From NCBI GenBank assembly GCA_017387505.1, contig JAFOFB010000006.1:1-64000 (forward strand): DNA of 64,000 nt, given 5' to 3'. Under the pieces are notes generated by a model, which made no database searches, was not told the origin of the DNA, and saw only the letters and a list, made by a program, of their open reading frames with translations. Made by a program: the position numbers and the translations under genes. This document shows, piece after piece, positions 9,225-49,754 of this stretch. The DNA comes from Methanocorpusculum sp. (GTDB lineage Archaea; Halobacteriota; Methanomicrobia; Methanomicrobiales; Methanocorpusculaceae). The first letter of the stretch is position 1; each line of letters opens with the position of its first letter.

Positions 9225-10203
9225 ATGCTGAACATAACAACATTCCTTGATGCAAACGCCTGTCGTCTGGATAAAACTGTATTTTACTGCCCTGAAAGAG
9301 ATGTAAGCTACAACTCAAAAGAGATTCTCTCCATCTCATCAGAGATTGCGCGGCAGATTCAGTCGCTTGGAGTGGAAAAGGGAGACCGCGTGATGCTTTA
9401 CATGAACAGCACTCCTGAATATCTCTTCTCATACTTTGCAGTATGGCGTCTTGGAGCTGTTGCAATTCCAACGAATCGTGTCTACACTCCAAGCGAACTA
9501 TCCTACATGGTGGAAAACTCCGGAGCAAAAGTAATCATCACAGATACTGAAGGAAAAGACTCTGCATCAGGTCTTGGAATTTCAGTCTATGTTCCGGAAA
9601 ACATCGAATCATTCCGCACAGCAGATGTGCTTCCTCCGGCAAATACTGACTTCAACGATTTATGTCAGCTTCAGTACACATCAGGCACAACAGGAAAACC
9701 AAAAGGAGCAATGCTCACTCATGGAAACTGGCTTGCTGCGATTCACAACGAGTGCGATGTCTTAACTTTAAAGCAGGATGATGTATACTTAGGCATCTAT
9801 CCAATGGGACATGTGGGTCTCTCCTGGGGAATTGCTGCAATGAGAGCCGGCGCTCTCTATGTAATGATGGAAAGATACGAACCAGCACGCTACCTTGAAC
9901 TCTGCAAAAAGTTCGGCGTAACAGTTCTTGCAGGAATGCCTCCTGTAATCCACTCCTTAACCGAAGCACCAGAGAATGCAGGATATGAAGAATGTCTCAA
10001 AACAGTTTGCTAAATCATCTCCGGCGGCGGCGATTGTCTGGAAGGAAGGATATTCCGCGGAAAATGAGGCAGACTTAATTGAATTTGCAAAACAGCACTT
10101 AGCAGGATACAAAGTGCCTCGAAAAGTTATAACAATTGAGGCTCTTCCAAGAGTAAATGGATGGAAGCTCTTAAGACGCGAGCTTCGCGAAAAATATGCA
10201 TGA
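9225..10203 (+). pseudogene. Acyl-CoA synthetase / AMP-dependent ligase with internal deletion
   Basis: The first 262 codons (9225-10013) are a normal N-terminal half of an acyl-adenylate-forming ligase, including the P-loop-like YTSGTTGKPKGAMLTHGNW. After YEECLKTVC the frame stops. From about 10019 another frame continues with the family's C-terminal domain (AIVWKEGYSAENEADLIEFA, then HLAGYKVPRKVI, which holds the hinge/adenylation region, and PRVNGWKLLRREL) to a stop at 10201. A full enzyme is about 500 residues, so roughly 180 codons are missing and the join is out of frame. Promoter, start and terminator are intact, which suggests recent loss. The original substrate (acetate, a longer acid or an aryl acid) cannot be told from what remains. 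Confidence 0.85.
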
Positions 10204-10226
10204 AGGGAATATCCCTCCTTTTTTTT
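10204..10226 (+). terminator. Terminator after the acyl-CoA synthetase pseudogene
   Basis: Hairpin AGGGA-ATA-TCCCT (10204-10216) followed by CC and eight T's. The T tract overlaps the stop of the convergent HdeD-like gene, so it may serve only the plus strand. Confidence 0.55.
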
Positions 10227-10794
10227 AATCTTTAAGTTCATTTAAGTCCTTCTTAATCACAACAGCTTCGGTTAAGGAAATTACTGCATTGATAATCAGT
10301 CCTGCGCCAAGCACGATAACTAATACCTGTGCTCCAATGCTTGGGAAGATTAAGAAAATGATACCGACAGCTGCCTCTACGAGACCGAGAAGGATTGTTA
10401 AAATCCGCATTCCAATCGACACATCATGTCCGAATGCGAGAACGATATCAGCAACACCTGCAGTGAGTGCGAGAATTCCGACGATAATTGTTGCAAACGA
10501 CATCATAAATTCAGGATTGATGAATGAATAAATCGCAAGAACAATTCCTACAACTCCAAGAACCACTACAATCCAGTTTCTTCTAAAGAAACCGAATGCT
10601 GAAAATCCGGAAAAGATTGCGGCGATAGATACAATCAGCAGGAAGAATCCGAGAAGATATGCACTAAGATTCATTGTGGCGAATGGGAATGCCAGGCAGA
10701 AGATTCCAAGTAATACGAAGATAATTGACTTGATAATCATTGCCTTCCAGACTCCTTCAGCAGAAGCCTCATCAAATACGGCAAAAGAATTCAT
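10225..10794 (-). CDS. HdeD/DUF308 family membrane protein (copy 1)
   Basis: A 189-residue integral membrane protein with six predicted helices arranged as three repeated helix pairs, the DUF308/HdeD pattern. The bacterial namesake HdeD is linked to acid resistance; the archaeal role is unknown. The start is ATG 10794 (MNSFAVFDEAS), because AAAGGAGAT sits about 9 nt upstream as a good ribosome-binding site. A paralogue lies directly upstream on the same strand (10959-11513), separated by 164 bp that contain an independent TATA-like TTTAAATAAAG and a perfect palindrome, so the pair need not be one transcript. Confidence 0.75.
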   Translation of the reverse strand: MNSFAVFDEASAEGVWKAMIIKSIIFVLLGIFCLAFPFATMNLSAYLLGFFLLIVSIAAIFSGFSAFGFFRRNWIVVVLGVVGIVLAIYSFINPEFMMSFATIIVGILALTAGVADIVLAFGHDVSIGMRILTILLGLVEAAVGIIFLIFPSIGAQVLVIVLGAGLIINAVISLTEAVVIKKDLNELKD

Positions 10795-27339: not shown

Positions 27340-27903
27340 ATGAAAATCAAAGGCGTAAAAATCCATGTATCTCCTGCGGTAATCATCGTATTTGTCTTCT
27401 TTGTCTTACTCTTTGTCTGGTCATTCTTCCTGACAAATGACTACAGCTACATCTACTGGGGGCTGCCGCTTTGTCTGTGTCTTTTAATCATCCCGGCTGT
27501 CAGCAGCTACAGTCTTGGCGGTCAGTACATCAAGCTCCTTCCTGAATACGAAGCAAACGCAAAAGACATGAAAATTAAAAATGTCAATCTCAACATGCAG
27601 GGAAAAGCTGTAAGAGTTGAAGGAGTTGTCCAGAACATCAAAGGAAAATTCATGGGACGTCCCAAGTATCAGATTTTCGACGGCTCCGGTGCTCTTATCG
27701 TCTTCCGTTCAATGCCTCTGGAAGAAAAAATCGAAGTTGGAGACAACATCGAAGCAGTCGGAATGGTTGTCAAAAAATATGCAATCGCCGGAAGCCTTGC
27801 TGTTCATGGAATTGGAATCAGAAAAATCGAAAACCTCTCTCCGATTGAGATTGACGACTCCATCAAATCAAAGTCTGATATCAAAATCAAAAAATACAAC
27901 TAA
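27340..27903 (+). CDS. Two-helix membrane protein with OB-fold domain
   Basis: A 187-residue protein with two N-terminal transmembrane helices (about 12-31 and 38-56), then a soluble domain (about 85-170) with the strand pattern of a nucleic-acid-binding-type OB fold: GKAVRVEGVVQNIKGKFMGR, FDGSGALIVF, VGDNIEAVGMVVKK. Such membrane-tethered OB domains in archaea are uncharacterised; nucleic-acid or oligosaccharide binding are the possibilities. It lies 53 bp upstream of the thioredoxin reductase fusion, on the same strand, but that gene has its own promoter-like ATATCTTAATAGG. Confidence 0.65.
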   Translation: MKIKGVKIHVSPAVIIVFVFFVLLFVWSFFLTNDYSYIYWGLPLCLCLLIIPAVSSYSLGGQYIKLLPEYEANAKDMKIKNVNLNMQGKAVRVEGVVQNIKGKFMGRPKYQIFDGSGALIVFRSMPLEEKIEVGDNIEAVGMVVKKYAIAGSLAVHGIGIRKIENLSPIEIDDSIKSKSDIKIKKYN

Positions 27904-33199: not shown

Positions 33200-33568
33200 A
33201 TGGCAAAAATTTACCAGATGTTTGAAGTTCCGGAAGAACTCCAGAACAAAGCACTTGAAGCATTAGAGCTTGCACGTGACACCGGAAAGATCAAGAAAGG
33301 CGCAAACGAGGCAACCAAGGCTGTCGAGCGCGGAACCGCAGCACTTGTCTTAATCGGTGCAGACGTTGCACCGGAAGAGATCGTTATGCACATCCCAGGT
33401 CTTGCAGACGAGAAGGAAATCCCATTCGTCTTCATCAACAAGCAGGCAGACATCGGAGCCGCATGCGGTCTTGAAGTCGGATGCACTGCTGTTGCAATCG
33501 TCAAAGTCGGCAAAGGAAAGGAAATCGTCGACGAACTCGCAGGTCAGATTAAAGCACTGAGAGGATAA
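33200..33568 (+). CDS. rpl7ae: Ribosomal protein L7Ae
   Basis: A 122-residue L7Ae, a 50S ribosomal protein that also binds kink-turns in C/D and H/ACA guide RNPs and RNase P. Recognisable blocks are [20 protein letters not shown] (RNA-binding loop), [18 protein letters not shown] and [24 protein letters not shown] 33200 ([10 protein letters not shown]) has GTGA upstream. It heads the operon L7Ae-S28e-L24e-ndk, with only 4-6 nt between genes. Confidence 0.96.
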
Positions 33569-33572
33569 GTCT

Positions 33573-33782
33573 ATGGCAGACGACGCAACGCCGGCAGAAG
33601 TCATCGAGGTCGTCGGCCTTACTGGAATGCACGGTGAAGCATCCCAGATTAAATGCCGCGTCCTTGACGGCCCGAACAAGGGACGCATTATCACCCGCAA
33701 CACCTTCGGTCCAATCCGTGAGGGTGACATCTTAATGCTCCTTGAGACTGAACGCGAAGCAAAGAAACTTTCAAGACGGTGA
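33573..33782 (+). CDS. rps28e: Ribosomal protein S28e
   Basis: A 69-residue 30S ribosomal protein with an OB fold. It has the expected [20 protein letters not shown] start, then [20 protein letters not shown], and ends in the invariant-type [16 protein letters not shown]. Length is normal. It is second in the operon, 4 nt after L7Ae. Confidence 0.96.
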
Positions 33783-33788
33783 GCAAAA

Positions 33789-33980
33789 ATGGTCGACAGA
33801 TACACCTGCAGCTACTGTGGAAAGCAGCTTGAACCAGGAACTGGCAAGCTCTTTGTAAGAAAAGACGGTGCAGTATTCTACTTCTGCTCCTCCAAGTGCC
33901 AGAGCAACTACAAGCTCGGCAGACTCCCAAGACGTGTTGCATGGACTGCAGCAGGCCGTAAAGCACGCGGAAAGGAGTAA
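33789..33980 (+). CDS. rpl24e: Ribosomal protein L24e
   Basis: A 63-residue 50S ribosomal protein with a four-cysteine zinc finger: [20 protein letters not shown] and [20 protein letters not shown]. Length is normal for archaea. It lies 6 nt after S28e and 5 nt before ndk. Confidence 0.96.
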
Positions 33981-33985
33981 GTCCT

Positions 33986-34435
33986 ATGGAGCAGACCTTT
34001 GTAATGATCAAGCCGGACGGTGTCCAGCGCGGACTCGTCGGTGAGATTCTCTCCCGCTTCGAGAAGAAGGGATTCAAGATTGTTGCCGCAAAGTTCGGCG
34101 TCCTCTCCGAAGCAGTTGTAGACAAGCACTACGAAGAGCACCTTGAAAAACCGTTCTATCCGGGAATGAAGGCATACATCACCAGCGGACCGGTCTTCCG
34201 TTTCGTCCTTGAAGGTGACAATGTAATCGCAACTGTTCGTAAGATGAACGGAGCAACCAACCCGGCAGAGGCAGCACCAGGAACCGTTCGCGGTGACTAT
34301 GCACTCTCCATTGGAAAGAATGTAATCCACGCATCTGACGCACCAGAAAGCGCAGCACGCGAGATTGCAATCCACTTCGAAGAGTCCGAACTCGTCGCAT
34401 ACGCAAAGATCGACGAGGGACAGCTCTACGAGTAA
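33986..34435 (+). CDS. ndk: Nucleoside diphosphate kinase
   Basis: A 149-residue NDP kinase that balances nucleoside triphosphate pools. The N-terminal [39 protein letters not shown] and [20 protein letters not shown] (catalytic His of the NxxHxSD motif) are intact. It is the last gene of the L7Ae operon; TTTTTTCTTTTC follows the stop as a probable T-run terminator. Confidence 0.96.
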
Positions 34436-36760: not shown

Positions 36761-37926
36761 CAGCATGCCCTCCTGAAGATGTGGCTCACAACTGTAGCTC
36801 CGGTTCCGCCGACATTCTGAGTCATACCGATTTCTGCTCCGTCAACCTGACGGCGTCCGGCTTCACCGCGAAGCTGCTGGACAACCTCCCAGACCTGCTT
36901 GATTCCCGTAGCACCAACCGGGTGACCGCAGGCCTTCAGACCTCCGGAAGTGTTTACCGGAAGCTTTCCTCCAATCTGAGTCTCGCCTTCTGCGGTGAAC
37001 TTTCCAGCAGTTCCCTTCGGAACAAAACCAAGGTCTTCGATTGCACAAAGCTCTGCAATCGTGAAGCAGTCGTGAACTTCTACGAAGTCAATGTCCGACC
37101 GCTCAATCTTTGCCTGAGCGAATGCTTTGCGTCCTGCCGCAACCGTTGCACCCATTGTGGAAAAGTCCGGTCTGTCGTGCAGAGCAATGGTATCTCCTGC
37201 CTGAGCGGATGCGAGAACGGTAATTGGGGTGTCTGTAAACTCGCGTGCTTTCTCTAAAGAACAGACAACAACTGCTGCCGCACCGTCAGAAACCGGAGAA
37301 CAGTCGAAGAGACGAAGAGGGGAAGCCACCATTGTTGAGTTCATCACAGTGGACTGAGTGATTTCGTTCTGGAAATGTGCGTACGGATTTCTTGCACCAT
37401 GATAGTGGTTCTTTACCGCAACCTGAGCTAACTCCTCGCGGGTTAAACCGTACTTATTCATGTAATCGCATGCAATCATTGCATATAATCCGGGGAAAGT
37501 TGCTCCTGCAAAGCTTTCCCACTCGTGGTCGGCAGCGCCTGCTAAGACATCGGTTGCATCTCCGACATCAGTCATCTTCTCAACACCTGCGGCGATTACG
37601 GTATCAGACATGCTGGAAGCAACGGCGGCTACTGCCTGGCGGAAGGCAAGACCTCCGGATGCACATGCGGCTTCAACGCGTGTTGCCGGGATGTGTAAAT
37701 CTCCTCCAAGACCGACATAATCTGCGACTAATGCACCAACGTGCTCCTGTCCGATGAAACGTCCGGCAGACATCGAACCGACAAAGAGTGCGTCAATCTG
37801 CTCTCCAGAAACGTTTGCGTCCTCAAGGGCTGAAACTCCTGCTTCGGTACAAAGGTCACGAAGCGATGCGTCCCAGCGTTCGCCGAATTTTGTCATTCCG
37901 GCTCCAATTACTGCTACTTCTACCAT
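36760..37926 (-). CDS. Acetyl-CoA C-acetyltransferase (thiolase)
   Basis: A 388-residue thiolase-fold enzyme, thought to condense two acetyl-CoA into acetoacetyl-CoA for isoprenoid synthesis. RVEAACASGGLAFRQAV has the nucleophilic cysteine, EVHDCFTIAELCAIEDLG carries a catalytic His, and GGLKACGHPVGATGIKQVWE the second active-site His and Cys. It belongs to the archaeal short-loop group that depends on the DUF35 partner. It starts 6 nt downstream of the HMG-CoA synthase stop. Confidence 0.9.
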   Translation of the reverse strand: MVEVAVIGAGMTKFGERWDASLRDLCTEAGVSALEDANVSGEQIDALFVGSMSAGRFIGQEHVGALVADYVGLGGDLHIPATRVEAACASGGLAFRQAVAAVASSMSDTVIAAGVEKMTDVGDATDVLAGAADHEWESFAGATFPGLYAMIACDYMNKYGLTREELAQVAVKNHYHGARNPYAHFQNEITQSTVMNSTMVASPLRLFDCSPVSDGAAAVVVCSLEKAREFTDTPITVLASAQAGDTIALHDRPDFSTMGATVAAGRKAFAQAKIERSDIDFVEVHDCFTIAELCAIEDLGFVPKGTAGKFTAEGETQIGGKLPVNTSGGLKACGHPVGATGIKQVWEVVQQLRGEAGRRQVDGAEIGMTQNVGGTGATVVSHIFRRAC

Positions 37927-37932
37927 TTTACC

Positions 37933-38976
37933 TCACACCCTGATTTTTCCTTTGTGACGTGCGTACACTGCATAATCAAGATACTTTTTCTTCTCAAGCA
38001 TCGATTCAACAGACGGAGCTTTGCTTCTGTCAATCTTATCGAGGATTGCTTCGGTAACTGTGATGTCGAATGAATCTGATCCGGCTCCGCTTCCGTAGCT
38101 TGTTACAAAGATTCTGTCTCCAGGCTTTGCAATATCTAAGACTGCTGCAAGTCCGAGCGGGACTGCTCCACTGTATGTGTTTCCAAGTCTTGGCACGAGA
38201 AGTCCTGGCTTAATCTGCTCAGAAGTAAATCCGAGAGTCTTTGCCGCCTTCTGCGGGAACTTTGCGTTTGGCTGGTGGAAGACTGCGTAGTCGTAGTCAG
38301 ACGGACGAGTGCCGCGTCTTTCCATCATCATCTTTGCAGCGGATTCGACATGCTTGAAATATCCGGGCTCACCTGAGAATCTTCCGCCGTGCTGCGGGTA
38401 GTCTTCTCCTTCGCGTCTCCAGAAATCAGGAGTGTCGCTTGTAAATGAGCATGTGTCGTTGATTTCTGCAATGGGGTCATCGTTTCCGATGATGTATGCA
38501 GCACCTCCGGCTGCTGCGGTGTACTCTAATGCGTCTCCTGGAGCACCCTGAGCGGTGTCAGCTCCAATAGCAACAGCGTACTTCATCATGCCTGATGCAA
38601 CAAGACTCATAGAGGTCTGTATTGCTGCAGTTCCTGCTTTGCATGCGAACTCATAGTCTGCGGCTGTCATTACAGGAGTTGCTCCGATTGCTTCACCAAC
38701 TGTTACTGCGGTCGGTTTTACAGCGTACGGGTGGGATTCAGAACCCACGTAGACTGCCTTAATTTCCGAAACGTCAACTTCGCGGCGTGCGAGTGCGGCG
38801 CGTGCGGCTTCTACTGCAAATGTTGCTGTGTTTTCATCGTAGTCTGGAACGGCCTTTTCAAAAACTCCAAGACCGCCTGAAATCTCTGCGGCGTTTGCTC
38901 CCCACACGCGTGCGATTTCATCGACTTTTATTCTATATCTGGGGATGTAAGCCCCATAGGTTATGATACCTACCAT
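37933..38976 (-). CDS. Hydroxymethylglutaryl-CoA synthase
   Basis: A 347-residue archaeal HMG-CoA synthase, joining acetyl-CoA and acetoacetyl-CoA for archaeal lipid synthesis. Features are [32 protein letters not shown] (catalytic Cys near residue 112) and [14 protein letters not shown] (active-site His). The start overlaps the upstream HTH gene by 7 nt. The operon order HTH, HMGCS, thiolase, DUF35 is widely conserved in Euryarchaeota. Confidence 0.93.
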
Positions 38977-39680
38977 TTTGCTTTCCTCAGTCTGGTAATG
39001 ATTTCCTGTACGCCAAGCGGAGTACAGAGTACGTTGATATGGTCCTTTTCGGCGAGGAGTTTTACCATCGGGTGCACTTTCCCGGCGGTAATCCCTTGCA
39101 GAATCACATAAGGAGGTTTAAACGGCGTAACGCGGATTGCAATCATCGGAGATTTTCCAGACGATACGTCGGTAAATATGAGTGCACGTTCAGTACTCCA
39201 GCCGTAAATGCGGTTGAACTCGCTTGGTGAGAGATTCAGGATTGCATTTAAGCTGTTGACAACGGTGTATCCGAAAATCTGGGAGTCTAATTCTCCGCAG
39301 ATGGTTTCACATTCTATGATTTCGGAGAGTTCTGTTATCGGAACAGATGCGGCGAAGTCATGAATATCATAGATGACTTCATCGTCATAGTTGGAAAACA
39401 GTAGTTTTCCATATTTTTTGATGAACTTCCCGCCGTTTTCTTCGTCAATATCTAAGATGCTGTCGACAATTTTTCCGACAACTCCGGTACCGGGGCTTTT
39501 TCTTCTTCCGCTTTCATAGTCGCTGACTACAGAAGGAGATACCCCGAGGTATTCAGCAAGAGTGCTTGGATGGATTTGGAAGCTTGTCCTCCATTTTTTC
39601 AATGCTTTTCCCGGTGAGTCTGAGAGAGTGATTTCGCCTGCCATCTTTTCGGCAAGCTGCTGACGCAGGCCCGGCTTCAT
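38970..39680 (-). CDS. XRE-type HTH regulator of the HMG-CoA synthase operon
   Basis: A 236-residue protein with an XRE helix-turn-helix at about residues 25-62 ([20 protein letters not shown] then SGRRKSPG). An archaeal-specific C-terminal domain follows that ends in [20 protein letters not shown]. It overlaps the HMG-CoA synthase gene by 7 nt and heads the operon, so it most likely controls isoprenoid precursor synthesis, perhaps sensing a pathway metabolite with its C-terminal domain. The start ATG 39680 (MKPGLRQQL) is preceded by AT-rich sequence. Confidence 0.85.
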
Positions 39681-39760
39681 ACACTATATAATTTTTCGTT
39701 ACTTGCATAAAAGCCTGGTTGTCGAATTCGTAAATTGACGAAAGAGTTTCAATGTCAACC

Positions 39761-39769
39761 CATATATAG
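39761..39769 (+). promoter_or_regulatory. TATA-like box for the riboflavin kinase gene
   Basis: CATATATAG lies 23-31 nt before the ATG at 39792, so the mRNA should be leaderless, supporting that start over an in-frame upstream ATG at 39735. Confidence 0.55.
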
Positions 39770-39791
39770 GAAGCGATACAATAATGGAACA

Positions 39792-40454
39792 ATGACTAAT
39801 ATTGATGCGGAGGATACGCTTTGTCTGCGAAAACTCGCTTCCCTTGGAGGTATTAAGGGGCCGGTTAGGATTTCTACTCAGGCATTGGGTGAGATGCTTG
39901 GAATCAGTCAGCAGACGGCATCGCGCAGGCTTTTGTCTCTTGAGCGTTTAAAGATGGTGACAAGAACAACAGAGGCAAGCGGTCAGCATGTTCTGATTAC
40001 GGCAGAAGGTGAAGAGCACCTCCGCCGCGAGTTTGCTGAGTACTGTAAGATTTTCGATGAGTCTTCCGAGATTTATTCGATGAAGGGTGTTGTTGTGTCC
40101 GGTGTTGGTGAGGGCAGATATTATATGTCGATTTATTCGGATAAGATTTCGGAGATCTGCGGTTTTGCTCCATATCCAGGCACTCTTAATGTTAAGCTGA
40201 ATCCACAGAGTATGCAGATTAGAAACCGTCTTGAGTCTTTGGAGTGGCAGATTATTCCAGGCTTTAATGATGAGCACCGTCAGTTTGGAGCTGTCCGCTG
40301 TCTGAGGTGTACTATAGGAGGCATTCCGTGCGCAATTGTGGCTCCTTTGAGGACGCATCATCCGTCCGAAATTGTGGAGCTTATTTCAGGAGAGCGCCTC
40401 CGCGAGGCTTTGAATGTTGAGGACGGCTCTGCGGTGGAGATTGTTATCTCCTGA
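39792..40454 (+). CDS. ribK: CTP-dependent riboflavin kinase with N-terminal HTH (RbkR type)
   Basis: A 220-residue fusion. Residues about 10-90 are a winged helix-turn-helix (TQALGEMLGISQQTASRRLL). Residues about 95-220 are the archaeal riboflavin kinase barrel: GVGEGRYYMSIYSDKI, GFAPYPGTLNVKLNP and the AIVAPLRTHHPSEIVELIS end block. The archaeal enzyme uses CTP to make FMN, and the fused HTH form (RbkR) is a known regulator of riboflavin genes in archaea. FMN demand is high in a methanogen that also makes F420. A T-rich stretch after the stop is the likely terminator. Confidence 0.92.
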   Translation: MTNIDAEDTLCLRKLASLGGIKGPVRISTQALGEMLGISQQTASRRLLSLERLKMVTRTTEASGQHVLITAEGEEHLRREFAEYCKIFDESSEIYSMKGVVVSGVGEGRYYMSIYSDKISEICGFAPYPGTLNVKLNPQSMQIRNRLESLEWQIIPGFNDEHRQFGAVRCLRCTIGGIPCAIVAPLRTHHPSEIVELISGERLREALNVEDGSAVEIVIS

Positions 40455-40496
40455 TTTTTCTCTTTTTTTGTTTATTGGGTGTATTGTTGGACGTTT

Positions 40497-40515
40497 GTAG
40501 GAGCGTTTTTCCTAC
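40497..40515 (+). repeat. Hairpin in the spacer before the large surface-protein gene
   Basis: GTAGGA-GCGTTTT-TCCTAC. The stretch GAGCGTTTTT-CCTA-CGCGAAA (40501-40521) recurs as GAGCGTTTTT-ACCC-CGCGAAA at 54997-55017, suggesting a dispersed small palindromic element. Confidence 0.5.
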
Positions 40516-40682
40516 GCGAAAGAGTACATGCGTTCAACATCACTGGAAACAACCATACGAAATGTATCTGAGGATTTTGGATATAACCCCTCTATTCACG
40601 AGGTCCAATACATTTATGTCAATATATTGCAAATATAACATCACTCTCAATGGCTGATATGCACAAATAAGAGGTGTTGTGT

Positions 40683-43600
40683 ATGGGTAAATTATCTCCA
40701 AACAATTCTATTCGAAACTCCTCCCCCCCTTCTGGAGTCGGAGAGAAAAGTTGTATCGTATGGTAAGGTTGGAATCGTAGTTCTGCTTTTCCTTCTGCTG
40801 TTTACTGTTCCGGTAGCGGCTGAAGAGAGCTCTCCTTCTCCTTCTTTGAAATTATCTTATTGTCCTAATCCAGGTTGTTCAGATGAGACTGACTCTTTGA
40901 CTCTCAGTCTTTATGCAAGTCATGCTCGCATTTCTATAGCAGACTATACTGGAGAAAAGATTAACTGGGAAGTAACCGGTGAGGCAATTACTATCACTTC
41001 GTATGATGGGGATGCTATAGAGATTAAACCAAAGTCGGTGGGTACTGCAACAGTCCGTGCTTCATCTTATGATGGTGATACGGTCTTTGGTGAAACAACA
41101 GTTGATGTTACTGATTCAAAGAAATTCTATGTTAATATCTCGTCTGGACAAAATAAGTTCCCATTATACGTCTCTCTTAATGCAACAGAATTAAACTATA
41201 TGGGTTATGCAGTTGATGAGTATGGAAACTATGTTCCTGGTGTTGAAATCACGTGGACAAATAATAATGCTGATATATATGCCCTGAGTGCAGCTGAGTA
41301 TAAGGATGTTGATTCTGATATTATTCAGTATTATATATTATCAATTCCTGATTTGAAGGAAACAGGGTCTGTTTCATTCAGTTCCAAGATATCAGATCAA
41401 GAATATCAACACGAAACACAGACATGGTATTTTGAAATAACAGAAACTACGGCGCGTAGCATGGGATTTGATGTTCTTCCCAATAGAGTGTTATTCGTGG
41501 ATGAATCATATAAAGTTTCAGCATGGGTGTATGATCAATATGGGTTAAAGACTACTCTCCCTATCGAATGGAGTTTCACCAATTTAGAAAATGAAAATCT
41601 AAATAACAACTATCAGGAAGTTCGTCCATCAGCAACAGGTTCTGCAATAATAGAGGCTAAATATGGTGGTATGTCTATCCACTATGATATCACAATTGGG
41701 ACAGAAGAAATAAGTGAGATTAGAATTTCCTGCTCCTCTCTTGAGATTACAAAGGACGGACATAGAACTTTGGATGTCAAACTTCTCAACCAAAATGGTG
41801 ACCGGATTAGTGGAGATTTAGCTGGTTCTCATAGCCTCACGATAAGCGGCGGAGAATCTTATTTGGATACAACAATTCGAGGGGGGTAAATCTGCCTATT
41901 CTGTAGATATCTCTGCAAAGGAAGTAACACCCAGTCCGATTACACTTACCTTTACCTATGGAGATAAGTCTGCCACTCTTCAGGTGGAAGTGTATGAACC
42001 TGAATTAATGAGAATTGAAATTGGCGGGGATGAATCACTCTCGGTTGGAACATTCAGTAATCTCTTTGTTGATTTGTATGATCAAAATGACAATATTATC
42101 ATATCAACGAGTGATTACAGCATTCTCTGGAATATAGAACCGACGGGCATTCTGGAGATCAAAAATGTATTCCCTCATAATGCTGAAGTCTTTGCACTGA
42201 AGGAAGGTGGGGTGGAAGTAACAGTATCCTGTAATGGAATAACTAGCGCTCCTTATCAGGTAACTGTTGGACCGTTAGAGATAACTAATATGGATATAGT
42301 TATTGGCAGAGATTCGTGTCCACTTGGAAGTCCGATTAACTTCCAGGCAAAAACATTGAGTAACGGCAATCCTGTCTCTGCTCCATCAGAAAAAGTAGCA
42401 TGGGTGATTACCGATGCGTTTGGCAGTACAATCAAGTCAGGTCAAGCTTCCTTCAGTGAGATTGTTGAATACACTCCTAAAGAATTGGGAACATATACTG
42501 TAAAACTTACTTATAATACTCTGACCGCGGAAGAAACTATTGAGGTATATGAAGCCACTCCTTCTTATGTTTTATACATGGAATCGCAAACTTTGGAAGT
42601 AGGAACTGAACAGATGTATCATTTTTTCGTCTGTGATCAGCATGAATACCCTATCGATGATGAGGTGATAATTGCGGATCTGTCGTGGGAAATTACCTCC
42701 GGCTCGGAGTTTGCAGAAATTGAGGTGTCTGAATTCAACTACTTCACATTAACTTCAACTGGAAAACTCGGAAGTGTCACACTCATCCCGAAGTACAATG
42801 ATGATGAACTGCCAATTATACTTGAGGGAGGTGGGGAGTCAGTGTCTCTGACAATTAAGGTCTTCAATCCCGCGAATGTGGGGAAGATTACAATTAATGA
42901 ATTTTCCATCCCGTCGATAATTGAGACTGATAGTAGTAGTCTTATTCGTACCACCTCATATGATACCAACGGATACTGTCTCGTTAATCCGGAACTCACA
43001 TGGACAGTGGATAATCCGGAAATACTGAAATTTGTTAATCCTGGAAGCGAATCTCCCGGATTGGTGGATTCAATCGCCGTAAAATCTGAGGGGGAGATGT
43101 TTATCCATGCCCTCTCGCCAGGAACGGCAACAATAACCATTAGTTCCGGCACTGTTTCTGTCTCTCTTAATATTAAGGTATATGCACCTGAACCAACGAG
43201 TATTAAAACAATACAATCCTCCTCCTCCTTTGCTGTTGGAGAAACAACCCTGATTACTGTGGAGGTTTATGATCAGATGGATTCTTTCTGTTCCGAAGCT
43301 GAGGTTAGGTATCAGGTTGACAATACAATTGTGGATGTTTCTTATGATGAAGACTTAAAGATTTTATCTATCACTCCAAAGAAGACAGGCTCTACTACTC
43401 TTAAAATCTTCTCAGGAAGGGCATCGACAAGTATTCCGATTACCGTCCTGGAAGATCCGTCGTTAACAATTACCTGTGATGATGCGGTAATTTATGGATT
43501 TACCCAAACAACAATTCGGGGAGTCGCAAATGTTCATACTGTATATCTCTACGTGCAGACGGGAAGTGGAGAGTACTGTGAGTTTGAAGATGTAAACTCA

Positions 43601-45058
43601 CATGGAATTAGTGTTTCTAATGGAAAATGGGAGTACAGCTTTACTCCGTCAGAAGAATTCATTCATACGAATCAGATTATTCGGGTAACCGGAGAGAGAT
43701 ATAATGTTTTGGACGGTACTGTAACACAACCCAGTCTGAACTCAGACATACCCTATGCTGAAATCAAATTGAACATAGAGTATCCTGGGGTTGTCATAAT
43801 AGAAACTGAGAAGAGCAGCGATAAGATTGGGGTAATAGGAACTGCAGTTGGAGCTGAAACTCTCCAGTATTATCTGTTCGATGCAGAGGGTATCAGAACA
43901 GGAACTATTCCAGTAAACCCCTCTGAATATACATATTCCTTAGAGATTGACAGGAGTGAGATTCATGGTTGGGAATGCTACCTCCTTCTCCAGCACCCAT
44001 ATACAGATAATCTGTTTAATCTGAAACTGGATGGTACAACTCTCTCCATATACGATACAGAAGAATCCGGACTTGCATCTGAGGCATCAAATAGTCTTTC
44101 TCTTGATAATAAATATGGAAAAGAGGCGTATGATATTGTGGTTGATTTTATTGATCACGAGTTGGATGCTTATGATTATTCATGGTTCAATTTTGTAAAT
44201 CCTCCTGAAATCAGCCCGGTAGAGGGAGTGTATGAATTACCATTGACAATTACTCTCACAACAGATATTGTCGGTGCAAAAATCTATTACACTATAGATG
44301 GTGAGAGATTCTCAGAGTACTTTTCCCCCTTAGTAATATCAGAGGTAACAGAGGAATTCACCATCGGTGCTGTAACTGTTGTTGATGATGTTATGAGTAA
44401 TGTCAAATATGCAGTATTCTCAATTACAGAGGACACTTCATCTTCCACCTCTTCCTCCAAAAACACTGGCTCTGGAAACTACAACGAATACCCGCGCACC
44501 GTTACCAACGGCGGCGAAGTATCCTTTGGCACCTCAAAGATTGTAAAATCCGTTGACCTTCCAAAAGGACTGAGCGGAGAAGTCAAACTCATTGCCAAAT
44601 CGGAAACTCCGGGACCGGAAGGCAAAGAAACCTACAACGTCTTTGAAATCAACATCCCGAACTATCCGAAAGGAGAAAAGGCAGTTATTCGTTTCACTAT
44701 CTCTGCAGCAGAACTTGAAGCAAAGGGATTCGGACCGGCAGACATCCGCCTGTATCACTATGATGAAGAAAACGGATGGACTCCGCTTTCGACATCGTAC
44801 AAGGTAACAGGTGATGGTGTCTCCTATGAAGCTGAGACATCTTCTTTCAGTCCGTTTGCAATCGTATTCGAGAAAGGAGCGGCAACAGAAAGAGCTGATG
44901 CAGAAGTACCGGAAGATATTCCGGGAGTAACACCGGGTGATGACGAACCGCTTCCGTCAATTCCTGACACTCCAACAGAAACCCCGCAGACTCCATCTCC
45001 GGTATTTGGAGTTATTGCTGGACTGCTTGGCGCAGGACTGCTCCTGAGAAGAAAGTAA
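40683..45058 (+). CDS. Giant multi-domain surface protein, interrupted by two homopolymer frameshifts
   Basis: Reading from ATG 40683 (GAGGTG 6 nt upstream) gives MGKLSPNNSIRNSSPP, then the frame breaks at C7 (40723-40729). The next frame supplies LLESERKVVSYGK and a signal-peptide core VGIVVLLFLLLFTVPVAA, and stays open to 41889, where G6 (41881-41886) again shifts the frame; the third segment runs to 45058. Deleting one base in each tract restores about 1,457 codons. The mature protein has many repeated Ig-like (BIG2-type) domains, a chitobiase-C-terminal-like segment (PEISPVEGVYELPLTITLTT), and a PGF-pre-PGF-like domain (FSPFAIVFE). A Pro/Thr-rich stalk and a sorting-type end SPVFGVIAGLLGAGLLLRRK follow. 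It is likely an exported adhesin-like protein. Uninterrupted pieces lie at 40846-41889 and 41984-45058. Confidence 0.8.
40723..40729 (+). repeat. C7 homopolymer tract at the start of the surface-protein gene
   Basis: Seven C's, 40 nt after the ATG. With 7 the start codon is out of frame with the signal peptide; with 6 or 9 it would be in frame. Confidence 0.6.
41881..41886 (+). repeat. G6 homopolymer tract inside the surface-protein gene
   Basis: Six G's read CGA GGG GGG TAA, giving a stop. With five G's the reading is CGA GGG GGT AAA and the protein continues into the downstream frame. Confidence 0.6.
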
Positions 45059-45261
45059 TTTCTTCTCGAAAATCATTTTTCCACAGATAATTTATCTGTA
45101 ATCCAAGCCTAATTAGTATGGGGTTCAACCTCTTGAGAACCTGTATCAGGTTTGTCAATTGTTTATTGAGTTGCGTTGGTCGTTTGGTCGCGACAATAAC
45201 AACGCAACGTTTCCTATATCTTTTATATGACAATACTTACTTGTGTATTGAGGCCATCGCC

Positions 45262-45560
45262 TCAAACCACGCGCCACTCCAACCTCCGCAGATTCCCGAA
45301 GTTCACTAAAAGCCCTTCATGCATCCCCGTAGATTTCAGATAACTTTCAATCTGCATCTCATGTGCTTTACTCAAACAAGACACCGCCTTTAACTCCACA
45401 ATAATCGAACCATTAACAACCATATCCGCACAGAACTCTTTTCCTAAATCAACGCCTTCTCATACACTGATTCAAGATAACCTGACTTCAGTGTGTTATA
45501 CACACGAAGAGCACATCCAACGATTCTGTACATATCCGAGTTTGTATCTAACTTTTTCAT
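45262..45560 (-). pseudogene. GxxExxY family protein, internally deleted
   Basis: From ATG 45560 the minus strand reads MKKLDTNSDMYRIVGCALRV then GYLESVYEKALI and stops. Another frame carries on GKEFCADMVVNGSIIVELKA ... EMQIESYLKSTGMHEG, then LLVNFGNLRRLEWRVV, to a stop at 45262. These are the two halves of the GxxExxY family (a PD-(D/E)xK nuclease-like fold of unknown role). About 25 residues between GYLESVYEKAL and KEFCADMVV are missing and the join is out of frame, so this is a decayed copy. Confidence 0.75.
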
Positions 45561-46079
45561 AAACAGCTCCAAAGCCCGCCTGCCGCGCCGCTCGGCTAAT
45601 GGCGAGGGAGCGAAGCGACTAAGCCATGAGCAAGACCGAAGGGCTTGCGACCGCCGCGGCTTTTCGCGGCAGGCAATCAGTAAAGTCGAAGCGAACCAAA
45701 CAACCGGCGGGCTTACAAAGGCTGCGTGTACACTGCGAGCCAATATCTCTGACGGGATGAGAGCGGCTGATAAGCCGCGAACAGACCGGCTGAGTTATTC
45801 GCGAGCAGGGGAAACGCCTGTGCCCCGCCCATTTTCTGTATAGTAAGGAGGGCGTAAGAAAAAAGACGGACGCGCCGAAGTCCGCAGGAGTTGAAGAGCG
45901 ATTAGCGATGAAACTCCGAGGACAAAGGAGCGGCTCGTATTTTTTTAGCCCGACGGAAAAACCACTAAAAGAGCATCAACCAAATAAACTACAAAAGCCG
46001 GAATATCTCAACCACCTCCCCTGATTGCCCGCCGGAATAGAGCGGCGCGATTAGCAGCCGCTCTGGCGGGAAAAAAACA
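45561..46079. other. GC-rich non-coding stretch full of hairpins
   Basis: About 520 bp with no convincing gene and clearly higher GC than the flanks. Contents: GCCGCG-GCTTTT-CGCGGC (45653-45670); ATGGC...GCCAT around AGCGAAGCG (near 45600-45635); CGGAC-loop-GTCCG (45867-45884); GGAGTT...AACTCC (45887-45917), then seven T's (45940-45946). The last three together could form a plus-strand structured RNA. A long open frame across 45493-45843 looks random. Confidence 0.4.
46028..46070. repeat. Large hairpin after the ABC ATPase gene
   Basis: CCCGCC plus AGAGCGGC pairs with GCCGCTCT plus GGCGGG, with a 5-nt bulge (GGAAT) and a 10-nt loop. It lies 10 nt beyond the ATPase stop, separated by a run of T's on the minus strand; probably part of its transcription end. 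Confidence 0.6.
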
Positions 46080-46961
46080 TCACTTAGGAATCACAACTGG
46101 CAAATCGTTATGGAAGATAACATCCACCTCGATTCCGTAAACATCTGAAATAAGCTTTGGTGTAACACCCCACTTATCGCATGCCGCATAGATTTTACCG
46201 CCCTTCATAAACACAAACCTGTCCGCGAACCGAAGAGCCAGATTCAAATCATGCATCGTCATAATTGTTGCACAGTTATGCTGGTCAACAACATGTCTTA
46301 TCAGATGTAAAATCTCCATCTGGCGCGACAGGTCAAGAGCAGATGTCGGCTCATCGAGCAGAAGAACTGACGGCTCCTGCACAATAGCACGGCAGACACA
46401 GACTCTCTGCAGTTCTCCGCCGGAGATTTCATCAATGTAGCGAAGCTGCATCGAAGACAGACCAAACTTGGCAAGGGCATCCTCGACCATTGCATAATCA
46501 TCTTTAGTCAGTTTCCAGGTGATGTGCGGTTTTCTGCCAAGCAGGACCGAATCGAAAACGGTCATGCGGGCAGCTTCACTTTTCTGGGCAACATAGCCGA
46601 CATTTTTTGCGATATCGTTTGCCGACATCTTCGAAAGATCTGCATTGTCAACCAGAATTACTCCTTTCTGCGGACGGAGAATCATATTCATACAGCGAAG
46701 AAGTGTGGACTTTCCAACACCATTCGGTCCTAAGATTGCCAGAATTTCTCCGCGGGAAACACCAACCTCGATATCCTCCAGAACCGAGTGCGATTTGTAG
46801 CCAAAGGCAACACCATCCACTTTGAGAATTGCTTCTCCCGGACAGTCGCTGTGGTGCTCGTGGTTTTCTTCGTGCGAATGCGGATGGGAGTGAGTAATGC
46901 CATCTCCGTGCATGTGCTCATGGTCATGCATATGTCCGTGGTGTGAGTGATCGCCTGTCAC
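46080..46961 (-). CDS. FecE-type ABC transporter ATPase with His-rich N-terminus
   Basis: A 293-residue ATPase of the iron-complex/B12-type importer family. The Walker A is GPNGVGKST (about 78-86), signature SGGELQRV, Walker B VLLLDEP, then D-loop and H-loop MTMHDLNLALRF. Uniquely, the first 40 residues hold 15 histidines (HSHHGHMHDHEHMHGD and more) plus Asp and Glu, a typical metal-binding tail seen in nickel, cobalt or zinc handling proteins. It overlaps the permease gene by 4 nt. The His-rich tail argues for a transition-metal rather than a plain siderophore substrate. Confidence 0.9.
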   Translation of the reverse strand: MTGDHSHHGHMHDHEHMHGDGITHSHPHSHEENHEHHSDCPGEAILKVDGVAFGYKSHSVLEDIEVGVSRGEILAILGPNGVGKSTLLRCMNMILRPQKGVILVDNADLSKMSANDIAKNVGYVAQKSEAARMTVFDSVLLGRKPHITWKLTKDDYAMVEDALAKFGLSSMQLRYIDEISGGELQRVCVCRAIVQEPSVLLLDEPTSALDLSRQMEILHLIRHVVDQHNCATIMTMHDLNLALRFADRFVFMKGGKIYAACDKWGVTPKLISDVYGIEVDVIFHNDLPVVIPK

Positions 46962-48019
46962 ATTCTCCTCCCCTTAATAATTAAGTAAATGAATACCGGC
47001 GCTCCAAGGAAGGATGTCAGAACGGCAACCGGAAGAACCTGCGGTGCGATGATAGTGCGGGCAACGGTGTCTGCTGCCAGAAGCAGAAGAGCTCCGCAGA
47101 TAATACTTGCCGGAATTAAGAAGCGATGATCATCGCCGACAATTCTGCGCATCATATGCGGACAGACTAAGCCAACAAAGCCGATGATGCCGAGGAAGGC
47201 GACAACAATCGCACTGATAAGCGATGCAGCAATCATGCCAAGCAGACGGGTACGGCTGACGTTGACGCCAAGCCCTTTTGCCGTCTCTTCGCCTGCATCT
47301 ATTGCATTGAAGTCCCAGCGTTTGAAGAAGAGGTACAGCGAACATACCGCAACAACTGCTGTGATTAATCCAAGCTCGCTCCAGCTTGCTCTTGATACAT
47401 CACCGAACTGCCAGAAGACAATCGATGCTAACCGAGTGTCATCGACAAAGTACTGAATCGCCATCAGTCCCGCGGAGAACAGAGAACTGATTGCAACACC
47501 GGCTAAGACCATCGTCTCCGGGGTTGCTCCGCGGATTTTTGCAATGGTGAGGATGATGGCAGTCGTTGCAAGCGAGAAGACGAATGCGCTGACGGTTGTC
47601 AGGTAGGGGTTGTTGACAACAACGGCATCAGCAATACTGCTGCCGGTAGTTCCTGCTCCGAAAATCAGGATACCAACTGCGGCACCGAATGCGGCGGCAT
47701 TGGAAAGACCAAGCGTAAAGGGAGATGCCAGCGGGTTGTGGAGAACCGACTGCATGGCAACACCGGCAATTGCAAGGCCTGCACCGGCAACAACTGCCGT
47801 TAATGCCTGCGGGATTCTGATGTTCCAGAGAGCACGGTCAAATAACTCGGTGCCGCCTGGACCATGAAAAATGGTTGCAATCACATCCGGGATGGGGATG
47901 CGGATTGCACCAACCGAGATAGTGATTAAGAACAGCACCACGCAGAGGATGATGCCGACAATGATAACACCGGCTTTTTTCCCGACATAGGATTTGTAGT
48001 CTGCTGCGTTGTCCTTCAT
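46958..48019 (-). CDS. FecCD/BtuC-type ABC transporter permease
   Basis: A 353-residue permease with about ten helices of the FecCD family. ALTAVVAGAGLAIAGVAMQS, LASPFTLGLSNAAAFGAAVG and GIIGFVGLVCPHMMRRIVGD (the ATPase-coupling loop) are intact. It forms a homodimer with the ATPase dimer to import iron, cobalamin, molybdate or other metal complexes. It lies 26 nt downstream of trmO and overlaps the ATPase gene. Confidence 0.92.
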   Translation of the reverse strand: MKDNAADYKSYVGKKAGVIIVGIILCVVLFLITISVGAIRIPIPDVIATIFHGPGGTELFDRALWNIRIPQALTAVVAGAGLAIAGVAMQSVLHNPLASPFTLGLSNAAAFGAAVGILIFGAGTTGSSIADAVVVNNPYLTTVSAFVFSLATTAIILTIAKIRGATPETMVLAGVAISSLFSAGLMAIQYFVDDTRLASIVFWQFGDVSRASWSELGLITAVVAVCSLYLFFKRWDFNAIDAGEETAKGLGVNVSRTRLLGMIAASLISAIVVAFLGIIGFVGLVCPHMMRRIVGDDHRFLIPASIICGALLLLAADTVARTIIAPQVLPVAVLTSFLGAPVFIYLIIKGRRM

Positions 48020-48045
48020 CTTTCTGATATATAGGTGTTCATAGT

Positions 48046-48456
48046 TTATTTCTTCGGCGAATCGAACTCTGCACTGTACGGTTTGATGTCCAAGACCGGT
48101 GTTCCATCAAGTGCTTCAAGTCCGGAAACGATTATGCGGTTCTCTTTGATTTCCTCAATTTTTACGAGCGTGAGTGCAATGGGATTTGGTCTGTTTGGAG
48201 AGCGGTTGGCAAAGACTCCTTTTATCGGCAATGTGTCATCGCGCCGTGACTGCAGAACTGTTCTGTCTGAGCGGTCAAACCAGCAGAATACAAAGATGTC
48301 TGCCCCTGCTTCAAGACCGAGCATTGCCGGAAGATAGGCATCTTCCAGCGTGATGGTGCTTATCTCTTCGGTCAGTCTTCCCTGACGCGGCGCATCCCCT
48401 CTCTCTTTGAAGGGAGAGGAGACGAAGCCGATTGGAGTACAGTTTATCTCAGGCAT
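48046..48456 (-). CDS. trmO: tRNA (N6-threonylcarbamoyladenosine37-N6)-methyltransferase TrmO
   Basis: A 136-residue TsaA/TrmO protein that uses S-adenosylmethionine to methylate t6A37 in tRNAs. Typical blocks are TPIGFVSSPFKERGDAPRQG, IFVFCWFDRS and GVFANRSPNRPNPIALTLVK. The start ATG 48456 overlaps the stop of the upstream binding-protein gene by 8 nt. It sits inside a metal-transport operon, an odd context for a tRNA enzyme. A decayed copy of its 5' end lies at 49755-49838. Confidence 0.88.
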   Translation of the reverse strand: MPEINCTPIGFVSSPFKERGDAPRQGRLTEEISTITLEDAYLPAMLGLEAGADIFVFCWFDRSDRTVLQSRRDDTLPIKGVFANRSPNRPNPIALTLVKIEEIKENRIIVSGLEALDGTPVLDIKPYSAEFDSPKK

Positions 48457-49593
48457 TGATGAGCACCTTCTGGTACGATAAATCATTTACATGCTCTTTT
48501 AACTGGTTAAAGACAGGTTTGCCAACTACGTTTGTGTAGATTTCATCCGCTTTCTTTACCGGATCAATGTCAGCGAACTGCTCAGGATAGAGAATCTTTC
48601 CAATGTAGTAAGCATTTGCGAGAGCAGTTTCATGGTTTGCGTTCATTGCTGTATCCGGATTAAGCGTATAAATCCGGTTTTCCATAACCGCATCCAGATA
48701 TTTGAGTGACGGATCAGTTTTCATCTCTTCAATTGCTCCGCCTTCTGCGGCAGTAAGTGTTGCGAGATCAACAAAGATGATGTCAGGATTCCATTCAAGG
48801 AGTTTCTCCTTGGTAATCTTTGCATATCCGGTATTTCCGGTACTATCAACCTCAGATGAAACAATATTGTTTGCGGAGAGGACTTTGAACGGATAGAAGG
48901 AAGGATTTGTTGCATCTATTCCATGGGATCCCTGGAATGCCACGCCAGCAACATAGACTGACGGCTTTTCTCCGCTGTAAGCAGCTGCACGCTGTTTCAG
49001 GTCGGCATCAAGTGCGTCAAAGTATGCAATAAGTTCCTCAGCACGTTTTTCTTCTCCAAAGATTTCAGCAATCATGTTCAGACTTGCCTGAATCTTTTCA
49101 CTGTCGGTTGCGTAGTTTCCTGTGTAGAACATTACAACCGGGATGCCGGTTTTGTCCTGCACTTCATCTGCTTGTTCAACACTGGTACTTGAAGCTCCAC
49201 CCATGAAAAGGATATCAGCACCAGAGGCAAGAAGCCGTTCATTGTCAACAACAGCTTTTGCAGGACCTACTGCTTCCTTTCCGAGGATTTCCGGATGGGA
49301 GAGAATATATGGACGTAAATCATTCGAGGATTTGTAGGATTTGCTGTCCAGGAAATCCACAGCTACGAAACGTTCGGTGTCGATACCAAGGTATACGAAG
49401 TACCGCATCGAGCCGGAGCCGACAGCAGCCACCTTTTCCGGATTATACGGAACAGTTACTTCACGACCAAAAGCATCAGTTATGGTGATTGTTTCATCCG
49501 TGTTCTGCGGAGAGTCAGTAGTAACACATCCGGCCGAAGCCAGAATCGCACAAAGAACAAAGGCGATTACCAGAATGGAGGATACTTTGCCAT
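48449..49593 (-). pseudogene. ABC substrate-binding lipoprotein, frameshifted at codon 2 (inner copy)
   Basis: The mature domain (VAAVGSGSMRYFVYLGID ... SYQKVLINA) is intact and closely similar to the outer copy. Its lipoprotein signal (GKVSSILVIAFVLCAILASA then GCVTT) is present in frame with it, but the ATG at 49593 is one base out (ATGGCAAAGTATCC reads MAKYPPFW then stop). In the signal-peptide frame the first upstream codons are TAA TAC TAT GGC, so no start exists until a GTG at 49432, behind the signal. One lost base just after the ATG explains it. If real, no exported protein is made. Confidence 0.8.
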
Positions 49594-49599
49594 AGTATT

Positions 49600-49616
49600 A
49601 CGAAATTATATTTCGT
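49600..49616. promoter_or_regulatory. Operator-like palindrome before the inner binding-protein copy
   Basis: ACGAAAT-TAT-ATTTCGT, a perfect 7-bp inverted repeat, lies 7 nt upstream of the ATG and between it and a TATA-like TATAATATGAAA (49622-49633), where a repressor would block initiation. TTCGTAATACT directly before the ATG is shared exactly with the outer copy at 50974. Confidence 0.5.
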
Positions 49617-49754
49617 GATATTTCATATTATACTTGTCGCAATGATGTTACGAAAACACCACGAATTAAACCATGGTATGAACATTAAAAATAGTTAGAA
49701 GAAATCCGGAGAATTCCGGACTTCTGGTTCATTTGGAGAGAGGGAGGCTATTCC

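Follow-up and report, generated by a model that had tools for sequence, protein, structure and literature searches.

The window, the whole stretch of DNA analyzed here, is 64 kb of a gut Methanocorpusculum MAG (G000; 1.425 Mb, 24 contigs). It contains a surface-protein gene that is broken into three reading frames at two homopolymeric tracts, C7 near the start codon and G6 in the interior (Table 1). G/C runs of six or more number three in the window, and two of these fall in the surface gene.

Table 1. Features of the surface-protein gene and its surroundings in the window (strand given relative to the window).
Feature	Position	Strand	Remarks
Segment of ~5.47 kb missing from G018	40472..45941		Includes the surface gene as well as a GxxExxY-type remnant
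Probable ribosome-binding site GAGGTG	40671..40676	+	6 nt 5' of the ATG; from sequence and inference
Out-of-frame product	40683..40766	+	27-codon frame, from ATG 40683 through C7 to TAA
Cassette TCGAA-N6-C7-ttc-TGGAG	40712..40737	+	Form common to sister genes
C7 tract	40723..40729	+	Proposed slipped-strand switch
Signal-peptide hydrophobic segment KVGIVVLLFLLLFTVPVAA	40765..40821	+	Frame +1 relative to ATG 40683
Surface protein, N-terminal part	40846..41889	+	Ig-like repeats in frame +1, with a weak match to Big_1
G6 tract	41881..41886	+	Second frame break; within the third Ig-like repeat
Surface protein, C-terminal part	41984..45058	+	Frame +2; more Ig-like repeats, then C-terminal domains
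CHB_HEX_C_1-like domain	44216..44386	+	Pfam PF13290, E=4.2e-6, over cut-off
PGF-pre-PGF domain	44612..44866	+	TIGR04213, E=1e-12, 48.3 bits versus cut-off of 28
Anchor-like C-terminal tail SPVFGVIAGLLGAGLLLRRK	44996..45055	+	From sequence and alignment with paralogues

Removal of one base from each tract restores a single open reading frame. Translation from the ATG at 40683 reads MGKLSPNNSIRNSSPPSGVGEKSCIVW and meets its first stop at 40764-40766; the C7 tract is 40 nt 3' of this ATG. The signal-peptide frame (frame +1, containing ...PPLLESERKVVSYGKVGIVVLLFLLLFTVPVAAEE) extends without a stop from 40639 through 41886 and then hits a TAA at 41887. In frame +2, the last stop before the TAA at 45056-45058 is at 41843, which leaves the frame open from about 41846. 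The signal-peptide frame has no ATG, GTG, or TTG 5' of the signal, only CTG or ATT codons, and its first TTG, at 40846, is 3' of the signal. We therefore take the ATG at 40683 to be the natural start. With one base fewer in C7 and one fewer in G6, the three frames therefore join. The earlier note on this DNA had placed C7 between this ATG and a signal peptide in another frame and a second frame shift at G6, and had predicted a single protein of ~1,457 codons after removal of one base from each tract; all of this, including the length, was correct. It had also named stops or decay elsewhere in the gene as evidence against its proposal, and we looked for these and found no further stop or frame break outside of the two tracts (frames checked to 45058).

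The product is probably a large, exported, cell-wall-anchored protein with Ig-like repeats. Reading by eye, we recognize about eight putative Ig-like repeats of ~100 residues each, with the motifs V-D-x-x-G-N ... W; the repeats are visible in this way, and the Pfam Big_1 match (E=0.0011, 19.5 bits) is under the cut-off of 34.9. The protein resembles archaeal PGF-pre-PGF surface proteins (TIGR04213) in that this C-terminal domain scores over the cut-off, and differs from them in its tail, which reads SPVFG...LLRRK, and in having no match to the PGF-CTERM model (NCBIfam) at E<=0.01. The tail has an archaeosortase-type layout (Pro-rich, hydrophobic, basic end), and the likeness is one of general layout only. 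We found no clear orthologue of the ectodomain in 60 related genomes, in which the C-terminal domain alone recurs well, and a search with the full-length protein against the genome contigs gave no match.

The surface gene is absent from the corresponding locus of the closest available species, Methanocorpusculum sp. RGIG2143 from goat colon (G018). By blastn, window positions 37840-40471 and 45942-49632 match one G018 contig (G018:C9) back to back, and the ORFs there place a RibK-like gene directly next to an ABC transporter gene, with no surface gene between them. Directly 3' of the surface gene in the window is the remnant of a GxxExxY-like gene (45262-45560, minus strand), in which a small internal stretch is deleted. 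An apparently intact GxxExxY-like gene is directly 5' of a surface gene with a poly-C tract (G023:C137) in Methanocorpusculum sp. RGIG8706 from water-deer colon. The stretch that separates the surface-gene remnant region from the ABC transporter gene (45560-45800) is GC-rich, unlike its surroundings, and resembles an extragenic repeat. Two other genes in the window also differ from those of G018. A substrate-binding protein gene is tandemly duplicated (48449-49632, minus strand; the single G018 copy aligns twice), with a 4-nt change at the start of the duplicate that shifts its signal peptide, and an acyl-CoA ligase-like gene (9225-10230, plus strand) is cut down by a large deletion compared to its 498-codon G018 orthologue.

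Poly-C tracts are present at the equivalent position in at least seven further genes for exported surface proteins, in four Methanocorpusculum genomes. The tracts are C6-C11 in length, with the C on the coding strand, and are located about 20-50 nt 3' of the ATG and directly 5' of the signal peptide. Including the window gene, four of the eight genes are in frame from the conserved ATG: G000:C5 (a tract of six), G018:C6 (eight), G018:C3 (seven), and G023:C137 (nine), named here by genome and contig. In the other four, the conserved ATG is not in frame; these are the window gene (seven) and three genes of Methanocorpusculum sp. S4R_St_61 (G008): G008:C144 (nine), which has a 1,396-codon open frame after the tract, G008:C69 (ten), and G008:C31 (eleven), which has an in-frame ATG nearer to the tract. 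The off frame could be rescued in two of the G008 genes by an ATG or TTG that is in frame and near the tract, and the G008 lengths of C9-C11 may be inaccurate because coverage of that genome, according to its record titles, is only about 5-6x. The mature parts of the proteins are unrelated and include Lipase_3, List_Bact_rpt (Listeria-Bacteroides repeats), VWA plus a hydrolase, Cthe_2159 (carbohydrate-binding), and Ig-like domains. Two orthologues of G018:C3 have an interrupted tract, and both are in frame (G002:C17, CCCCATCCC; G009:C31, CCCCCTCCC); this orthologue group retains a TP/SP-x-x-W peptide whether or not the C-run is pure. G008 also has a C11 remnant without a gene (G008:C167). The giant orthologues G000:C5 and G018:C6 are mosaic, with blocks of ~90% DNA identity between stretches that barely align.

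The C7 tract at the start of the surface gene is more than a chance occurrence, because runs of this length are rare and because sister genes have poly-C at the equivalent position. There are 6 C/G runs of seven or more in G000, 7 in G018, and 69 in seven genomes, and 7 of these 69 are 20-50 nt past an ATG and directly 5' of a signal peptide. The chance expectation is about 0.3-0.45 such tracts, with a P of about 2e-8 to 5e-7; these are rough figures that assume 200-325 signal-peptide genes per genome and use a class defined post hoc from the first case. Long poly-C tracts at the ends of contigs of G022, G020, and G004, which resemble assembly artefacts, were left out of the counts. In addition, CCC is a minor Pro codon in the window (46 of 729), so that Pro-Pro by itself would not be expected to give C-runs.

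The tracts in the sister genes also share flanking sequences, mostly TCGAA before the tract and TGGAA or a near form after it. Across the genus, the TCGAA pattern had 17 matches, of which several overlap or are due to chance, compared to 1 for the reversed control. Among the 30 places listed for poly-C followed by TGGAA, five precede a signal peptide, and all five were already known. As a search pattern, TCGAA plus C6 was too loose; matches beyond the four genomes were mostly chance or in ordinary genes.

We believe, with a probability of roughly 0.6, that expression of the surface gene is set by slipped-strand phase variation at C7, and that G6 is a second slippage that has been tolerated. 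According to this model, expression would be set by the poly-C tract that separates the start codon from the signal peptide, and slipped-strand replication would alter the tract by one C. With C6 or C9, the signal peptide would be in frame with the ATG, and export of the protein would follow. With C7, the assembled allele, translation would stop after 27 codons and the protein would be off, and a second slippage at G6 could then be tolerated, as the gene would already be off. We favor this model because poly-C recurs at the equivalent place, with varied length and in both frame states, in genes for non-homologous exported proteins. We infer that slippage occurs in living populations and is reversible, and that the protein is exported and has an adhesive or antigenic role. 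A single slip would be sufficient for the start region of the window gene alone. It would not restore the full-length protein, because the G6 break persists, and this allele requires two corrections. In G008:C144, which is open past its tract, a single slip would restore the product. Both tracts, at seven and six bases, are short for efficient slippage, and poly-G/C switches in bacteria are usually longer.

The two tracts are not equally good candidates for a switch. The earlier note had treated both as parts of a phase-variable gene and had suggested that their lengths be compared in relatives. The start-proximal C7 came out of that comparison well supported, with lengths of C6-C11 across related Methanocorpusculum genes and both frame states. 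The sister genes have no interior tract at the point equivalent to G6; several of them have interior stops or frameshifts away from tracts, including stops at codons 440 and 636 plus a frameshift in G000:C5, one TAG in G023:C137, and one frameshift in G008:C69. Because sister genes bear such lesions, we read the G6 break as a second slippage, which is probably a lesion and not a switch by design. G6 may also be a dedicated second switch, although this possibility is unsupported.

The likeliest alternative is that the gene is a young pseudogene, in which the two most slip-prone tracts each slipped irreversibly and the poly-C at the start is incidental to a Pro-Pro N-terminus. The gene has two breaks, its paralogue G000:C5 is dead, and decay is common in this class of genes, because G000:C5 and G023:C137 bear interior lesions while being in frame at the start. 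There is decay nearby in the truncated acyl-CoA ligase gene and the duplicated binding-protein gene, and the persistence of the TP/SP-x-x-W peptide without a pure C-run in orthologues of G018:C3 also fits an incidental tract. However, a pseudogene would leave unexplained both the poly-C before signal peptides of non-homologous genes in both frame states and the absence of stops over about 1,400 codons. Neutral decay of 2% would leave the gene free of stops, apart from the two tracts, with P=0.02; therefore, if the gene is dead, its death was recent. Based on these considerations, we regard this explanation as unlikely, and phase variation at C7 as the preferred reading.

It is quite improbable that the true alleles are C6 and G5, with the gene intact and the frame breaks due to assembly or sequencing error. 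Homopolymer errors are common in uncorrected long reads, but the contig titles of related MAGs are in the style of short-read assemblies. As a control, we listed all C6 tracts in G000 and read 30 of them, plus those of C7 and longer, and found that about 18 other C6/C7 tracts well inside open genes keep the frame. We also compared the proteins of the window with those of G018 in both directions. In about 16,000 aligned codons there was no clear homopolymer frameshift; the breaks found were the truncated acyl-CoA ligase, the 4-nt change in the binding-protein copy, and one possible change of 1 nt close to the 3' end of the gene at 27340. Systematic homopolymer error is therefore unlikely. An apparently broken 258-codon gene at 33350-34128 turned out to lie antisense to genes for ribosomal proteins; the T6/T5 difference there is intergenic. 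Least probable of all, and hardly credible, is recoding, in which slippage on C7 (and G6), during translation or transcription, would yield some full-length protein from unchanged DNA: homopolymers can promote such slippage and the gene is otherwise open, but two events would be required, and the sister tracts differ in length, with several in frame and needing no recoding.

Other homopolymeric tracts in the genus are near promoters or upstream of ORFs. Poly-C tracts of 8-14 are directly 3' of an archaeal-type promoter (forms of CCGAAAGG/CC plus TTTATA or TATATG) at G000:C15, G009:C13, G008:C1, G008:C100, G008:C162, and G007:C1. Changes in these tracts would alter the spacing between TATA box and start, and they may represent a class of transcriptional switches in the genus. 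Poly-G tracts of 10 and 11 are 66-68 nt upstream of related ORFs starting with MGTYTANY-x-LYMPTVGE (G018:C3:119424 and G002:C39:8543); the tract has been kept in two species and differs in length. We tentatively suggest, at somewhat less than even odds, that gut Methanocorpusculum use slippage at poly-C tracts for phase variation at multiple loci, in two forms: a portable cassette of start codon, poly-C, and signal peptide, which would switch the translation of unrelated surface proteins, and promoters in which poly-C directly follows the TATA box, which would switch or tune transcription.

Because the cassette is found on several non-homologous surface proteins, the set resembles a repertoire of translational contingency loci. 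As in the poly-C/poly-G contingency loci of Campylobacter, Helicobacter, and Neisseria (PMC11868660), the homopolymer is start-proximal in a surface-protein gene, a genome has several such loci, frame states are mixed, and the genes are mostly open otherwise. The Methanocorpusculum loci differ from these in their archaeal host, in tracts of C6-C11, and in being candidate switches. They also differ in the location of the tract: it is part of a short N-terminal extension, common to non-homologous proteins, that precedes the signal peptide.

Switches of this kind have been little documented in archaea, as the earlier note had maintained. A 2025 review treats the spread of phase-variation loci in archaea as open and a matter for the future (PMC11868660). 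The available part of a survey of 99 genomes (81 bacteria, 18 archaea) reports that poly-A/poly-T tracts are enriched at the 5' ends of coding genes and that poly-C/poly-G tracts are not shifted to 5' ends, and describes no archaeal poly-C loci (PMC2831843). The survey and our observations have in common homopolymers positioned so that a frameshift would silence the gene, in archaea as well, and differ in that the enrichment in Methanocorpusculum is of poly-C before signal peptides (PMC2831843). The tail-fibre genes of the haloarchaeal virus phiCh1 provide an archaeal system with a phase-variable surface-binding protein; switching there differs in that it occurs in a virus and is based on a recombinase, whose gene is between the tail-fibre genes (cited in PMC4284463). 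Our search of the literature for slippage or poly-C switches in archaea or methanogens, with subscription papers mostly outside its reach, found nothing on point.

The lengths of the C-runs in the sister genes, in and out of frame, suggest a DNA on/off switch of a type that is well known in bacteria and hardly described in archaea. Phase variation by slippage is a main route by which host-associated bacteria vary their surface. If our interpretation is correct, gut methanogens would vary their surface likewise, as a response to host immunity, archaeal viruses, or changing partners, and the cassette would provide a simple sequence handle for finding such loci and testing them in reads.
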